Assembly (NCBI GenBank): GCA_937121175.1
Contig: CAKZKD010000039.1
Span: forward strand, 124,001-188,000
DNA from: an uncultured Flavobacteriales bacterium
GTDB lineage: Bacteria > Bacteroidota > Bacteroidia > Flavobacteriales_G > Salibacteraceae
Direction of reading: 5' to 3'
Length of the DNA stretch: 64,000 bases
In this document: positions 56,384 through 62,050 of the stretch, one piece after another
How the letters are laid out: every line of letters starts with the position of its first letter
Numbering within the stretch: the stretch's first letter is position 1
The notes under the pieces: model-generated
Told to the model about the DNA's origin: nothing
Database searches by the model: none
The model's input: the letters and a program-made list of their open reading frames with translations, nothing else
Position numbers and translations under genes: made by a program

Positions 56384-57511
56384 TTATGTACTTGTTGTTG
56401 TTTCGGGTAACATATCAATCCTATTTGGAATTCGAATCTCAAAGGCAGACCCTTGTTTCAATATCGATTTCAACTCAATTGTACCACCCAACAAATCAAC
56501 AGCTTCTTTAACGATATAAAGGCCGATTCCAGCTCCTGTGCTCTGCTTGCTGCCTCTGTAATAAATGTTGAAAATTTGAGCTTGGGTTTCTACATCAATA
56601 CCAATTCCGTTGTCTTCGATTTTCAGTAGGAGTTCATTCTCCTGAGCTTGCACAACAATTTTAATTCTCTTTGATGGCTTCTTCTTATCTTGATATTTAA
56701 TAGCATTGGAAATCAGGTTATTTAAAATATAGCGCAGTCGTGATTTATCAGAACAAAAGACACCGTCTTGCTGCACACTAACATCAAAAGTAACTTCCGA
56801 AGCGTTCTCGAAATATTCATATTCTTTTAAAACCGATTGCATTAATTGCTTGAACCTAATGTTCTTATAGGTAAGAGCAGTTCGTTTGTTTCGATGAAAG
56901 GTAAGAACGTCCTTAACCAAGTGCCTTAGTTTTTTTGCAGTATATTCAATTAAATTGAGGTACTCACCAGACTCGTCCCCCTCCATTTTGGTTAAAGAAA
57001 TTAAACCCATGATATTCGATAACGGGCCAGTTATATCATGCGCTGTGCTAAACACTAGACGATCTAACTCCAAGTAAGCTTTTTTGAGTTCTTCATTTCG
57101 AGCACTTAGCTGAATCTTTGTATAGTACAAATCAAACGCCGCAGCAATTGCATTTCGAACATCTCTTTCACTCCACGGCTTCACCAAAAATCTAAATATT
57201 TCACTTCGGTTAATGGAATCAACAATGGCTGGTAAATCTGCATGACCAGTAAGCATTATTCTAACCGTATTTGGAAATCGTTCTTTAACCTGCTCTAAAA
57301 ATATGACCCCGTTTTGCTCCGGCATCTTAAAATCGGAAACAATAATCGGAATATTGTTTTCATGAATTAACCTATAGCCTTCTTCCGGAGTAAGTGCGGT
57401 GTATATTTCGAAATCTCGTCTAAAATTTGCACGAAAAGAATTAAGATTATGCTCGTTATCATCGATGTATAAAATTCTCTTAGTTTCCAATCTGTCTCTA
57501 TTGTCTATCAT
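56384..57511 (-). CDS. Receiver-histidine kinase hybrid
   Basis: 375 residues, cytoplasmic. An N-terminal receiver domain (about 10-125: ILYIDDNEHNLNS, phospho-Asp in PIIVSDFKMPEQNG near 58, Lys in LVKPWSE) is joined by a short coiled coil to a kinase (HisKA at about 150-215, phospho-His in STAHDITGPLSNIMG; HATPase with NNLISNAIKY and GAGIGLYIVKEAVDLLGG). Lacking a sensor, it likely takes its signal by phosphotransfer from the 7TM kinase encoded just upstream, which it overlaps by 4 bases. The receiver closely resembles the lone receiver protein at 61547. Confidence 0.9.
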   Translation of the reverse strand: MIDNRDRLETKRILYIDDNEHNLNSFRANFRRDFEIYTALTPEEGYRLIHENNIPIIVSDFKMPEQNGVIFLEQVKERFPNTVRIMLTGHADLPAIVDSINRSEIFRFLVKPWSERDVRNAIAAAFDLYYTKIQLSARNEELKKAYLELDRLVFSTAHDITGPLSNIMGLISLTKMEGDESGEYLNLIEYTAKKLRHLVKDVLTFHRNKRTALTYKNIRFKQLMQSVLKEYEYFENASEVTFDVSVQQDGVFCSDKSRLRYILNNLISNAIKYQDKKKPSKRIKIVVQAQENELLLKIEDNGIGIDVETQAQIFNIYYRGSKQSTGAGIGLYIVKEAVDLLGGTIELKSILKQGSAFEIRIPNRIDMLPETTTST

Positions 57512-59646
57512 TCACCGATAACTTTCGGTAATGTAATTTTAAATTCTGTTCCGTTTGGCGGATTGGAGTTTACCTCAATATTTCCCTTATGGGCTTCAAT
57601 AATAGAAAATACGATTGAAAGCCCAAGCCCGGTTCCTTCACCAACTTCTTTAGTGGTAAAAAATGGGTCAAATATCTTGTCGATTAGTTTTTGAGGAATA
57701 CCCGGGCCATTATCAGAAAATGAAATTTCTACGTGTTCAGTCAGCTCCTTAGTTTTGATAATCATTGTTGCCGGCTTTTCCTGTTTATTTACTTCCATTG
57801 CCTGAAATGCATTTGACAGGATATTAGAAAACACTTGGTTCAACTTTCCTGGGTAGCACTCAATATCTCCAATGGTAGTATCATAATCTTTTATCACCTC
57901 TACTTTTACCTTAGAACCACTGAGCAAGATAAGCAAGGTAGAATCTATTCCTTGATGTAAATCAGCCGTTTTGGCTTCAAGTTCATCCAGTCGGCTGAAG
58001 TTTTTTAGGCCTTTTACAATTTCCGCGGTTCGGGCTGCTCCTTCTTCTATTCCGTTTACCAATTGATTTATTTCTTTAATGACGTATTCGTAGTCTATCT
58101 CTTTTAAGAATTGGATAACTTCATTTTGCTTTTGTTCAAATTCTTCAGCAGAGGCTATTGATCTATATTTTTCAATTACTTCTTTCAAGTCTTGGATATC
58201 TCGTTTTAGGGGATTTACATTGGAGGACACAAAATTTATAGGATTATTAATTTCATGCGCTATACCAGCTGTTAATTGACCCAATGAAGCCATTTTTTCC
58301 TGACTTACCAATTGAGTTTGTGCGTTTTTCAAATTGTAAAGTACCTCCTCCAACTCTTTGTTAGCAGATGAGAGCTCTTGTGTTCGTTCGTCAACCTTTG
58401 ATTCTAACATCACGTTTTGCTCCTTTATCAGAATTTCATTCTCTTTTAACGCATTGAGTTCACTTGTTTTTGCCTCTTCTTTTTCTAGAGTCAGTACATT
58501 AATCTTATCCGCTAAAGCAAATGACAAAAGAATTACCTCAATTGCAGAGCCGATGGGGATGGCATACACCGTGTAAGAGTTATATGGTAATACTCCGACG
58601 TCCTTAAGAACAAAAATCACGATTGAACCCATGAAAAACGACCAAGCGACTATGAAAAACTTTGCAGGTCGAAAGCCTTTACGTGCAATATTTATTGAGC
58701 CTATTAATAAAACTATTACGCCAATTGATGCAGTCGCGTTTATTAAATTGTAGCTTAGTATTGGGAATCCAAGAGCCAATATTACTAGCGTTAAAAAATA
58801 TGCACTGCCTATACCAATGAGTGCTTTTTGAAACCAAGGGGCATATTTTGTTACATTTAGGAAAAAGTAGGCAAACCCAACCACGGAAAGCCCTGAAAAA
58901 ATCCCAGCAAGATGTATAGAATAGGTAGAAATAAAATTTGAATCAATTTGAATTGTTTTTTCCAAAACCCCATTTAACGTAAGCTGGGTAATACCAACCG
59001 ATATCAAATAGAGCAGGTACCATAAATAATTATGATCGCGTGTAGAGGTGTAAATAAACAAATTGTACAGCAGCATTACCAGAATAATTCCTCCGTAAAT
59101 ACCTAATAAGTGCTCTTTAAGAAGTATTCGTTCTTGAATGCTTTTCTGGTTGCTTATGTTTATTGGAAACAATAGTTGCGAGTTGTTTTTTAATCTAAAA
59201 TAAACCTCCGTAACTCCCGAAATTTTAGGTGTCGAAATAATGAAGTCTTGGTGGTTAATTTCTCTATTATCAAAAGGTCGAAGAGTTCCCGTTTCTACTT
59301 TTTTTACAATTTGGCCATCAACAAGAAAATAAACATCCAAAAATTGAATTGAAGTATATGGTATTTGAAACTGCGCCAATTCATCTGAACTATTTTGAAA
59401 TTTAAACCTGAACCAATGATTTTTATTAGAGACATCTAAATTTGGCACCTCTTCTGTAACTGGATAAAAGTCTCCCTGCAGTATAGTGTCGGTAAGTATT
59501 GAACTTGCGCCACAAGTATTGCAATACCCAAATTCTTTGGCTGCATTAGAGATGAAACCTCCCTCGAAGTTGATAACCTGTCCGGTCAAGAACAAATTAC
59601 AACACAAAAGAACAGCTGTTAGTAGTTTATTTAATTTTGATTCCAT
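57508..59646 (-). CDS. 7TM-DISM sensor histidine kinase
   Basis: 712 residues. It has a signal peptide (about 1-23), a periplasmic 7TMR-DISMED2-like domain (about 35-170, carbohydrate-binding-like fold in relatives), seven membrane helices (about 178-375), a coiled coil (about 380-440) and a cytoplasmic kinase (HisKA with SLGQLTAGIAHEINNPINF near 450-470; HATPase with NILSNAFQAM and FFTTKEVGEGTGLGLSIV). The N-terminal domain of this class is thought to bind small extracellular ligands. It overlaps the acyltransferase-like gene by 16 bases and the receiver-kinase gene by 4, making it the centre of the operon. Confidence 0.92.
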   Translation of the reverse strand: MESKLNKLLTAVLLCCNLFLTGQVINFEGGFISNAAKEFGYCNTCGASSILTDTILQGDFYPVTEEVPNLDVSNKNHWFRFKFQNSSDELAQFQIPYTSIQFLDVYFLVDGQIVKKVETGTLRPFDNREINHQDFIISTPKISGVTEVYFRLKNNSQLLFPINISNQKSIQERILLKEHLLGIYGGIILVMLLYNLFIYTSTRDHNYLWYLLYLISVGITQLTLNGVLEKTIQIDSNFISTYSIHLAGIFSGLSVVGFAYFFLNVTKYAPWFQKALIGIGSAYFLTLVILALGFPILSYNLINATASIGVIVLLIGSINIARKGFRPAKFFIVAWSFFMGSIVIFVLKDVGVLPYNSYTVYAIPIGSAIEVILLSFALADKINVLTLEKEEAKTSELNALKENEILIKEQNVMLESKVDERTQELSSANKELEEVLYNLKNAQTQLVSQEKMASLGQLTAGIAHEINNPINFVSSNVNPLKRDIQDLKEVIEKYRSIASAEEFEQKQNEVIQFLKEIDYEYVIKEINQLVNGIEEGAARTAEIVKGLKNFSRLDELEAKTADLHQGIDSTLLILLSGSKVKVEVIKDYDTTIGDIECYPGKLNQVFSNILSNAFQAMEVNKQEKPATMIIKTKELTEHVEISFSDNGPGIPQKLIDKIFDPFFTTKEVGEGTGLGLSIVFSIIEAHKGNIEVNSNPPNGTEFKITLPKVIGE

Positions 59647-60374
59647 TCAAAAACCAAAGGGTCTAAATTATCAATATCAAGCTGATAGTCCACCTCTAGC
59701 TTTCTACCACGGTTTTCTTCGTAGCGAACTACCGTTAAATTCTTTCGCAACTCAAAAATTACATCTGTTTCAGAGGGGTTACCTCCTTCTAAAGAATTTG
59801 TATCTTGGATTAAACATGCGGTAGCAATTAAATCAATTTTGGGATAATAAAACTTTCCTTCGTCCCCTACATCAGTGTATTTAATAAAAGAGTAGTTTCT
59901 GGCAATTCGGGTGGTGAACGGAGAACATAGTGCCCATAAGGTACCAATGCCAATAGCTGGACAAATTGCAATTGCGCATCTAATTAGATATACCGCGCCT
60001 ATCCCTAAACCTGCAACTTCCATGGAGTTCCACAAACCACACAATTCTCCGGTTCCCTGAGGAGCATACTTTCTAATGTGCCTAGGTACCGAGCCATCCA
60101 TCTCTACAGTTGCCTCTTCAATAGGAAGCGGTTGAGTCCCACCTAATCCATGTACTCTGGATCCTCCATATATCTTGGAACCGTCTGGTGACTCACAAAT
60201 AATTACAAAAGACGCTGGGTTATTTTTCCATTCATGGCTTGATGATGTAACCTGCTCTACTCCAACTGAACTGAGCACTCGGCTATGACCTTCAATAAAG
60301 CGTTCACACTCCTCTGGAAAGTCAACAGCTCTGAATGCCTTTATCCGGACGTAATTTTTATCGTCAGGATTCAT
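59631..60374 (-). CDS. GNAT/autoinducer-synthase-like acyltransferase
   Basis: 247 residues from the ATG at 60374; longer starts up to 60491 lie inside the preceding gene. The layout suggests a GNAT fold: an N-terminal strand/helix with RIKAFRAVDFPEECERFIEG, a GGSRVHGLGGTQPLPIEE block (about 75-95) and a central glycine-rich helix start (GELCGLWNSMEVAGLGIG, about 120-137) reminiscent of the acyl-donor loop, then a G-rich helix IGIGTLWALCS and the aromatic YSFIKYTDVG. LuxI-type and FeeM-type N-acyl synthases share this order, with an acyl thioester as donor. The match is by pattern only. It overlaps the ThiF gene by 11 bases and the kinase gene by 16. Confidence 0.55.
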   Translation of the reverse strand: MNPDDKNYVRIKAFRAVDFPEECERFIEGHSRVLSSVGVEQVTSSSHEWKNNPASFVIICESPDGSKIYGGSRVHGLGGTQPLPIEEATVEMDGSVPRHIRKYAPQGTGELCGLWNSMEVAGLGIGAVYLIRCAIAICPAIGIGTLWALCSPFTTRIARNYSFIKYTDVGDEGKFYYPKIDLIATACLIQDTNSLEGGNPSETDVIFELRKNLTVVRYEENRGRKLEVDYQLDIDNLDPLVFEWNQN

Positions 60375-61440
60375 TTGCAATAAGAGTTTCTGTATCCATA
60401 AAAAATCTACCTGAAGGTACTTTTTCTCCCAACAAAATGCGGCGCGCCACTTCCGTGCAATTTCCACCGCCTGCAACAACCGCCGAAGCAAGTTGCGGCC
60501 ATGTTGAAATGCTCTTCCCTATTTCGGTCAATGAATGCTGTCCTCTTTTAGAAAGTTGAGAAATGTCTAAGATTTTGCTGAATAAACCCATTCTTTCTTC
60601 GGGTAATGGTCTCCAAGTATATGGAGGGTCAAAATCACCAATTCTTCCATGAAAATAGTGCAGATTTGGGTCTAAATCGTATCGTTCAATGTCCAACATT
60701 CCTCTATCGCTGGTATCCATTAATACTGGTATGCCCATTTCTTTAGCCTTCTTTCGTATCAATACTTTCATTCCTAAGTCATCACATTCATCAATCACCA
60801 AATCTAATTGACTACCAGACGAAAAGAAGTCGTTAATATTATTAGCGGTCAAGCCTTCGCTGTAACACGTAAGCTCGAAATAAGGATCAATCTCTGAAAT
60901 TTCACGAGATAAGCTGGTAGTTTTTAATTCTCCTAAATCGAATATTGGGGCCTTAATTCGATTTAAATTACTAAGGTCTAATTCATCAAAATCAGCAACT
61001 CGAAGTTCACCACAAATTTTTTCCATGGCTATAGTAGTCGAAACCGTTCTTCCTACTGAGAGCCCAACAACCCCAATTTTTTTTGTCAATAGTACTTCTT
61101 GTTCTTCTGCGGTAATTTTATGCTTGTTTCGGTTGGTTACCACATCTAAAAATTTGGGCTGGTCAATAATTCTAACTAATTGATTTCGCCAAGGATAATA
61201 GAAAAAATTGCCTGCAAATTCCGACAATGAATAGTATTCAGCTAAAAAGTCAACCTTTGATTTATTCTTCGTTGGGTAGCGTAGCATTTTCCACTCCAAC
61301 CACTGCTGTTTGTGCAAATCCAAGAAGGTAACGTTCGAATTGGCATCCAAAAACGTGGATAAATGGGAGGGTTCTGTGAACGTTAACTGCTTCGGAATAC
61401 GAATCGAATTCTTGTTGTTTTCCATATTAGCATGAGTCAT
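60364..61440 (-). CDS. ThiF/E1-like adenylyltransferase
   Basis: 358 residues from the ATG at 61440 (an ATG at 61425 would give 353); a TTG at 61467 lies in the -7 motif. The first about 120 residues are a helical domain of unknown fold (YSLSEFAGNFFYYPWRNQLV). The ThiF nucleotide-binding domain is at about 125-290: KIGVVGLSVGRTVST, VADFDELDLSNLNRIK (the usual DxDxVxxSNLNRQ region), LVIDECDDLGMK and PVLMDTSDRG. The domain activates carboxyl groups as acyl-adenylates. The glycine-rich loop is altered (GLSVGR instead of GxGGxG) and no CxxC zinc sites are seen. It most resembles the Rv1355c/MoeY-like group, without its nitroreductase domain. Confidence 0.75.
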   Translation of the reverse strand: MTHANMENNKNSIRIPKQLTFTEPSHLSTFLDANSNVTFLDLHKQQWLEWKMLRYPTKNKSKVDFLAEYYSLSEFAGNFFYYPWRNQLVRIIDQPKFLDVVTNRNKHKITAEEQEVLLTKKIGVVGLSVGRTVSTTIAMEKICGELRVADFDELDLSNLNRIKAPIFDLGELKTTSLSREISEIDPYFELTCYSEGLTANNINDFFSSGSQLDLVIDECDDLGMKVLIRKKAKEMGIPVLMDTSDRGMLDIERYDLDPNLHYFHGRIGDFDPPYTWRPLPEERMGLFSKILDISQLSKRGQHSLTEIGKSISTWPQLASAVVAGGGNCTEVARRILLGEKVPSGRFFMDTETLIANES

Positions 61441-61464
61441 TTCAAAATGACTTTTCAGACTAGT

Positions 61465-61491
61465 CAAATATAATCAGCAACTCAATACCAA
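61465..61491 (-). promoter_or_regulatory. Predicted promoter of the ThiF signalling operon
   Basis: Minus-strand TATATTTG (61472-61465) with TTG 16 bases upstream (61491-61489). The predicted start, near 61460, is 20 bases before the ATG at 61440. It lies in the 106 bases between this operon and the divergent receiver gene. Confidence 0.5.
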
Positions 61492-61546
61492 TTTGGAACG
61501 GGTATATTATTTAATTTTATTGTTCTATTTATTTAGCATTAAGGTT

Positions 61547-62050
61547 ATGTCGGAAAACGGGATTGATACAAACAAAAAAATAAAGTTGCTTTACATTGAT
61601 GACGAAGAAAATAACCTCACCGCATTAAAAGCAACATTCAGAAGAGAGTTTGAAATTGACACCGCGATAAGTGCGAACGAAGCCCGGAACCTGATGATTG
61701 ATAATGTTTATGAAGTAATTATCTCGGATCAGAGAATGCCCGAAACCACTGGTGTAGAATTTTTTCAAGAGATAAAACAAACCCACCCCGATCCTGTTCG
61801 AATTTTACTTACTGGATACGCAGATATTAATGCAGTTGTAGCTGCAATTAATCAAGGAGAAATATATCGGTATTTACAAAAACCATGGAAAGAATTTGAC
61901 CTTAAAATCAACATCAAGGGTGCGAGTGAAATATATCGTTTACGTGAGGCTAATAGAGACTTAACTGAAGAATTGCAAGAGGCAAATAAAAAACTGAAAA
62001 CTGTAAATAAACAAATGGAGTTTTTGGTTAGACAAAGTATGCTTTCTTAG
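61547..62050 (+). CDS. Receiver-domain protein with coiled-coil tail
   Basis: 167 residues from the ATG at 61547; upstream in-frame codons to a TTG at 61493 add a hydrophobic stretch that is probably not translated. The receiver domain (about 12-128) has LLYIDDEENNLT, phospho-Asp in EVIISDQRMPETTG (about 60) and the Lys in LQKPWKE, then a coiled coil of about 35 residues. There is no output domain, so it may act as a phosphate sink or by binding partners. It is a close relative of the receiver in the hybrid kinase at 56384, and divergent from the ThiF operon. Confidence 0.9.
   Translation: MSENGIDTNKKIKLLYIDDEENNLTALKATFRREFEIDTAISANEARNLMIDNVYEVIISDQRMPETTGVEFFQEIKQTHPDPVRILLTGYADINAVVAAINQGEIYRYLQKPWKEFDLKINIKGASEIYRLREANRDLTEELQEANKKLKTVNKQMEFLVRQSMLS

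Follow-up and report, generated by a model that had tools for sequence, protein, structure and literature searches.

A five-gene cassette at positions 56384–62050 of the DNA stretch analysed here (64,000 nt of contig CAKZKD010000039.1, assembly GCA_937121175.1; this whole stretch is hereafter called the window) is probably a self-contained system for synthesis as well as sensing of a signal. The main support for this conclusion is that the enzyme predicted to finish the signal molecule, in the window a ThiF-like protein, has in relatives been exchanged for a methyltransferase together with the 7TM domain of the sensor kinase encoded in the same cassette, whereas the kinase domain and the putative acyltransferase follow the species. 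To our knowledge, no pair of a lipid autoinducer synthase and its receptor is known in this phylum, and we found no description of such a system, or of its enzyme–receptor exchange, in the open-access literature.

All five open reading frames were found exactly where the original prediction had placed them, with four genes on the minus strand overlapping by 11, 16 and 4 bases and a receiver gene divergent from these. First among the minus-strand genes is that of the ThiF-like cyclase or adenylating enzyme (60364–61440; ≈358 amino acids, PF00899 at 65.8 bits), for which an inner ATG at about position 61425 may be the start, as judged from an alignment. It is followed by the gene for a GNAT-like protein (59631–60374; 247 amino acids), being a putative N-acyl amino acid synthase of the GNAT/LuxI/FeeM fold, and by that of a sensor histidine kinase (57508–59646; 712 amino acids, PF07696, PF07695 at 149 bits, PF00512 and PF02518, with His464 as phospho-acceptor). 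With its DISMED2 and 7TM domains followed by an output domain (HATPase at 90 bits), this kinase shows the architecture of the 7TMR-DISM family. Three of its parts are treated separately below, namely the extracytoplasmic DISMED2 domain (59155–59481, minus strand; residues 56–164, PF07696 at 77.3 bits), which belongs to the exchanged block and was found to diverge along with the 7TM domain when cassettes of different type were paired, the 7TM domain (58504–59109, minus strand; residues 180–381, PF07695), and the HisKA/HATPase core (57517–58296, minus strand), which tracks the species phylogeny. The last minus-strand gene (56384–57511; 375 amino acids, PF00072, PF00512 and PF02518) encodes a hybrid of a receiver (Asp60) and a histidine kinase (His158). 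The divergent plus-strand gene (61547–62050; 167 amino acids, PF00072 at 66 bits) encodes a single receiver (Asp61) with a coiled C-terminus. The domains that had been proposed were thus recovered with Pfam for the ThiF, 7TMR-DISM kinase, receiver-kinase and receiver proteins, and by structure prediction for the GNAT-like protein. The statement that the divergent receiver nearly matches that of the hybrid was too strong, since the two are only 47% identical.

The exchange was seen within the family of the window itself. Four of its genera are about equally distant from each other when judged by UvrC (69–72%) or RpoN (73–76%), and their kinase domains are 62–68% identical regardless of the type of finishing enzyme. 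Their 7TM domains, however, are 58% identical between two ThiF cassettes and 56% identical between two methyltransferase cassettes, but only 36–38% identical across the types. Over a set of 73 cassettes, the top six 7TM matches of each methyltransferase-type kinase all shared its type, also where they came from other families (five of six for locus L055), while the kinase domains of these proteins mostly matched their own lineage. When the methyltransferase type was mapped onto trees of this set, which like all trees herein were made in quick mode, two changes sufficed on the 7TM tree as compared to six each on the trees of the kinase domain and of the GNAT-like protein. A constraint holding the methyltransferase types together as one clade was not rejected for the 7TM domain (lnL 37.7 better, p 0.92) but was rejected for the kinase domain (p 2e-78) and for the GNAT-like protein (p 7e-41). 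With named genomes included, giving a joint set of 146 cassettes analysed with FastTree, the type needed two changes on the 7TM tree versus 20 on the kinase-domain tree. A clade of 10 ThiF-only 7TM domains, spotted post hoc on the tree, was likewise rejected by the kinase-domain tree (p 8e-13). In another genus, finally, neighbours having a ThiF–oxidase fusion or an O-methyltransferase shared 77% identity in the GNAT-like protein and 87% in the kinase core versus 51% in the 7TM domain.

As the hypothesis of co-exchange had been formed before the named genomes were added, the 37 cassettes of Sphingobacterium among these, 22 with a methyltransferase and 15 with ThiF, could serve as a replicate. 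The 330 cross-type pairs were 26–39% identical in their 7TM domains and 64–91% identical in their kinase domains, and the 7TM identities of the 336 within-type pairs (45–100%) did not overlap with the cross-type range. The case of S. faecale (ThiF) and S. paucimobilis (methyltransferase) illustrates this well, with shared flanks and with the GNAT-like proteins 87% identical, the kinase cores 91% identical and the 7TM domains only 31% identical, whereas S. faecale and S. yanglingense, both of the ThiF type, have 7TM domains that are 92% identical. At the DNA level, the identity between S. faecale and S. paucimobilis dropped from 72–96% to about 29–54% between the end of the GNAT gene and the end of the 7TM domain, and returned to 74–89% at the start of the kinase core. 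The 7TM domain thus follows the finishing enzyme, and the kinase domain and GNAT-like protein follow the species. The 7TM domain is also the sensing part that co-varies most clearly, a point absent from the original prediction, as were the kinship of the enzymes with known oxazolone-lipid synthases and the existence of methyltransferase versions. That prediction had held that two enzymes produce or modify what the kinase senses, and we regard the co-exchange of enzyme and 7TM domain as strong independent evolutionary support for the view that the cassette may make and sense a signal of its own.

What can be exchanged became clear from the gene found in the finishing slot. Usually this is ThiF, either alone (≈360 amino acids, the form in the window) or in fusion with an oxidase (≈750–780 amino acids; the C-terminal oxidase piece at locus L099 matches Rv1355c with 176 bits). 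Many Sphingobacteriaceae, three genera of the family to which the window belongs and another three families in the sample of the class have a class I S-adenosylmethionine-dependent methyltransferase there instead, and this enzyme never occurred together with ThiF (0 of 135 loci). A different O-methyltransferase (PF00891, 99.8 bits) was seen in a single case, L127, and at L109 (8818–9459) and L246 (7262–7903) the slot holds membrane enzymes that are 41% identical to each other and of the ICMT type, a family named for carboxyl methylation (PF04140, 70.6 and 66.2 bits, respectively). The structural model of the class I methyltransferase (pLDDT 92.7) matches many class I methyltransferases, including the carboxyl methyltransferases LahSB and JHAMT; the fold does not tell which atom is methylated, and a methyl ester would most simply be the product. 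The common denominator of the finishing enzymes would be the carboxyl group of an N-acyl amino acid, which ThiF would activate and close and which a methyltransferase can cap.

Several observations weigh against the cassette being a system that makes and senses its own signal. One locus, L121, has no finishing gene in the slot. The 7TM domains of the two cassettes with ICMT-type enzymes are 41% identical and no closer to each other than to those of other types. The link between the oxidase and the type of 7TM domain is weak, with the ThiF–oxidase label fitting the 7TM tree not clearly better than the kinase-domain tree (13 versus 11 changes), and neither a DNA-binding regulator nor an exporter is encoded among the five genes of the cassette. 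Furthermore, in the order GNAT, finishing gene, 7TM the exchanged pieces are adjacent, so that their joint transfer could partly be a matter of linkage. If that were the whole explanation, recombination would move the finishing gene along with the 5′ half of the kinase gene, and the kinase would sense something unrelated. The contiguity of the exchanged pieces in Sphingobacterium fits with this, and in that genus they were probably transferred as one block. In the window's family the order ThiF, GNAT, 7TM stands against GNAT, methyltransferase, 7TM; because ThiF there lies beyond a retained GNAT gene and the association with the sensor still holds, linkage alone would hardly account for it. 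The methyltransferase-type 7TM domains also group across distant families, the 146 cassettes requiring one additional change at most, and this persistence argues for a function in the association. We consequently find an explanation by linkage only to be very improbable.

A further alternative is that the cassette serves self-monitoring of an envelope lipid, with the acyl amino acid or oxazolone staying in the membrane of the producer and the 7TM kinase giving feedback on its level or on the state of the envelope, without signalling between cells. The lack of an exporter would agree with this, as would the findings that tryptazolones, which are made by related enzymes, were mainly found in cells and not in the supernatant and that oxazolones were linked by the authors to stress responses (PMC12856293). 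Acyl-tryptophan intermediates were, on the other hand, mainly found in the supernatant in the same study (PMC12856293), and repeated, allele-like exchange of an enzyme with its receptor between close relatives is the pattern of communication specificity groups. Self-monitoring hence appears to us a possible but rather unlikely purpose of the system.

That the window cassette may make a signal derives much from the nature of its ThiF-like enzyme, for which the best match, and that of near full length, was the NCBIfam model PRK07877, 'Rv1355c family' (392 bits, positions 3–340 of 722); the full-length cut-off of 476 was missed because the oxidase half is absent. ThiF/MoeB models scored at most 60 bits. 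Residues D150, R161, K173 and D220, which we take to correspond to the ATP-site residues of ThiF/MoeB, are conserved in 96–97 of 97 relatives. Residue 101, adjoining a conserved RN motif, is a valine in the window and an arginine in 95 of the 97 relatives, with R104 being kept. Rv1355c is the enzyme TrzS, in which the ThiF domain uses ATP to cyclise N-acyl tryptophan and the flavin oxidase half desaturates the cyclised product to a tryptazolone; the N-acyltransferase is TrzA (PMC12856293). The related TyzACB and OxzAB make tyrazolones (PMC10404671), and a ThiF cyclase of the Rv1355c/TrzS family together with such an acyltransferase yields N-acyl oxazolones elsewhere (PMC12856293, PMC10404671). 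The window cassette has no flavin oxidase, either fused or adjacent, as is present in many relatives. A search of the window's own genome with the L099 oxidase gave no match at E 0.1, in a search without positive control, while two ordinary nitroreductases are found elsewhere in that genome. The absence of the flavin oxidase would in the simplest case leave the cyclic product of the window ThiF saturated, most likely as a saturated N-acyl oxazolone.

The ThiF fold could also suggest that the enzyme activates a protein modifier in the manner of an E1, or that it serves thiamine or molybdopterin synthesis as a ThiF/MoeB enzyme, in which case the GNAT-like protein would be an ordinary acetyltransferase acting on the kinase or on another protein. 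Weak PADLOC matches for E1–E2 systems to the E1 part point in the same direction. The 392 bits to Rv1355c/TrzS as compared to at most 60 bits for the ThiF/MoeB models speak against this, as do the lack of any ThiS, MoaD, ubiquitin-like or E2 gene in the cassette and the exchange of ThiF with small-molecule methyltransferases, making such an identity, in our view, highly implausible. An E1–E2 conjugation defence system, as a candidate of its own, was rejected with E1-part matches of no more than 28 bits and no E2 gene.

No Pfam or NCBIfam model matched the GNAT-like protein, and searches of PDB sequences with it, either single or as a profile, gave nothing meaningful, so that its fold was resolved only by structure prediction. 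The AlphaFold2 model (pLDDT 90.3) was closest to the N-acyl amino acid synthase FeeM (2g0b; Z 17.0, with an rmsd of 2.5 over 174 residues) and also resembled the acyl-homoserine lactone (AHL) synthases LasI (Z 15.6) and BjaI (Z 15.5), at a sequence identity to LuxI/FeeM-type synthases of only 10–15%. The prediction of structure, proposed originally as a check of the GNAT-like protein, thereby pointed to the fold of acyl-transferring synthases, and this fold together with the partner enzyme leads us to infer that the protein is an N-acyl amino acid synthase. With at least 366 members in named genomes and yet no Pfam or NCBIfam model, most genomes probably list the members of this family as hypothetical proteins.

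Sought in other Bacteroidota in line with the original prediction, the order of the genes turned out to be kept across tens of genera, so that the prediction held on this count. For these analyses genes of relatives were called with a simple open reading frame script, types were assigned from reading frame length and profile scores, and the genomes were in part incomplete. Relatives of the GNAT-like protein occur in 17 of the family's 35 genomes and in 76 of 395 genomes of the class (43 of 196 genera). A scan of genome contigs using the single window GNAT sequence gave no match, whereas a profile scan identified relatives at 366 places in named genomes, including Sphingobacterium, Pedobacter, Mucilaginibacter and Parapedobacter. 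ThiF, GNAT, 7TM kinase and receiver-kinase genes were also found together in another class of the phylum (L245). In the gene maps the receiver, finishing enzyme, GNAT-like protein, 7TM kinase and receiver-kinase are kept together, with flanking genes that differ by lineage. A 7TMR-DISM kinase adjoins the GNAT gene at 59 of 59 class-level loci and at 74 of 76 loci in named genomes, with both exceptions near contig ends, and the divergent receiver is present at 52 and 73 of these loci, respectively. ThiF precedes the GNAT gene at 50 loci and follows it at 44. The order and content of the cassette thus recur far beyond chance. Carriage on plasmids was not supported, with no GNAT match in 72,556 plasmids.

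Some cassettes showed features of their own. Many have an extra small receiver of ≈130–140 amino acids located 3′ of the receiver-kinase (such as L121:5886-6281 and L058:13641-14045), which is absent in the window. In one genome of the window's family (G013), a single reading frame (L062:7671-8780) fuses the initial half of ThiF with the kinase part of the receiver-kinase, the divergent receiver still being adjacent, as if the middle of the cassette had been deleted. In genome G034 of the window's genus (L049:8144-10655), a full GNAT gene and a 98-amino-acid reading frame lie before ThiF with a broken second GNAT remnant after it, and the cassette looks to be in the midst of rearrangement; genome G033 of the same genus gave no GNAT or ThiF match. 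As for the remaining features of the window, the region between the divergent receiver and ThiF genes (61441–61546) would presumably contain both promoters, judging from its position only, and an Rfam search of the window gave no match. Among NCBIfam models, the single receiver was best matched by the receiver part of that for NosR-family c-di-GMP phosphodiesterases (168.6 bits), possibly a clue to the target of the output.

Taking these results together, we infer a chain of events for the chemistry of the signal, its binding, phosphotransfer, output and use between cells. The FeeM/LuxI-fold protein would link a fatty acyl group to an amino acid, whereupon the finishing enzyme would mask or alter the carboxyl end of the N-acyl amino acid, with ThiF in the window adenylating the carboxylate and closing it to a ring and with the methyltransferase of relatives most simply making a methyl ester. 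The product would then get to the membrane or to the outside, where the 7TM half of the adjacent kinase, perhaps also using DISMED2, would recognise its finished end. Much as has been proposed for Phc quorum sensing, the kinase could subsequently pass phosphate to the receiver-kinase and to the single receiver.

Although each of the protein families is already known, there is a serious chance that the system, being an acyl-signal system with a sensor kinase, forms a signalling class of its own. We also lean, if only slightly, towards a broader view, by which a Bacteroidota-wide family of lipid autoinducers would share an N-acyl amino acid core and carry exchangeable head groups (saturated oxazolone, dehydro-oxazolone and methyl esters), each with a matching 7TM half, placing close relatives in different signalling groups. 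If true, this would give a role to oxazolone lipids, the physiological role of which has been considered a major unresolved question (PMC12856293), and a class of endogenous ligands to 7TMR-DISM kinases. A candidate cell-signalling system would then be present in 43 of the 196 sampled genera of the class. The purpose of acyl oxazolones and the ligands of 7TMR-DISM kinases would both become questions that can be addressed directly by experiment, with the natural exchanges in cultured Sphingobacterium species providing ready-made pairs for studies of signal specificity.

Compared to known systems, the cassette combines traits of several. With OxzAB of Pseudoalteromonas rubra and TyzACB and TrzAS of Mycobacterium tuberculosis it has in common a FeeM/LuxI-fold N-acyltransferase adjoining a ThiF-like cyclase of the same family, and the flavin oxidase fused in OxzB and TrzS occurs in many relatives of the cassette but not in the window. 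Unlike those oxazolone pathways, it comes with its own 7TMR-DISM kinase and a pair of receiver proteins, and methyltransferases can replace its ThiF. The phcBSRQ operon of Ralstonia encodes a methyltransferase (PhcB) and a sensor kinase (PhcS) (PMC8578825, PMC10653808, PMC6989110) together with PhcR, having a receiver and a kinase but no DNA-binding domain, and PhcQ, having a receiver and a further C-terminal part (PMC8578825, PMC10653808). By layout only, the cassette may be likened to this arrangement, with a signal enzyme beside a membrane kinase, a receiver-plus-kinase protein as in PhcR and a single receiver as in PhcQ; a methyltransferase would finish the signal as in Phc only in the methyltransferase versions of the cassette, the window having ThiF. 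A tblastn search of plasmids with the receiver-kinase gave thousands of unspecific kinases at less than 29% identity, with no Phc sequences among the collections searched. Differences from Phc are the added acyltransferase, the ThiF in the window and the 7TMR-DISM type of the kinase. The fold of the acyltransferase is shared with LuxI-type AHL synthases and FeeM, but in the cassette a separate enzyme would finish the molecule, and unlike in LuxI/LuxR systems no LuxR-type receptor or regulator domain was found in the five genes with Pfam or NCBIfam. NicD of Pseudomonas aeruginosa, the DISMED2 of which was reported to bind carbohydrates (PMC8544897), and other 7TMR-DISM receptors have the same DISMED2 and 7TM sensor architecture. 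In contrast to such receptors, that of the cassette is genetically tied to a pair of synthases, and it is the 7TM domain itself that displays the clearest pattern of specificity.

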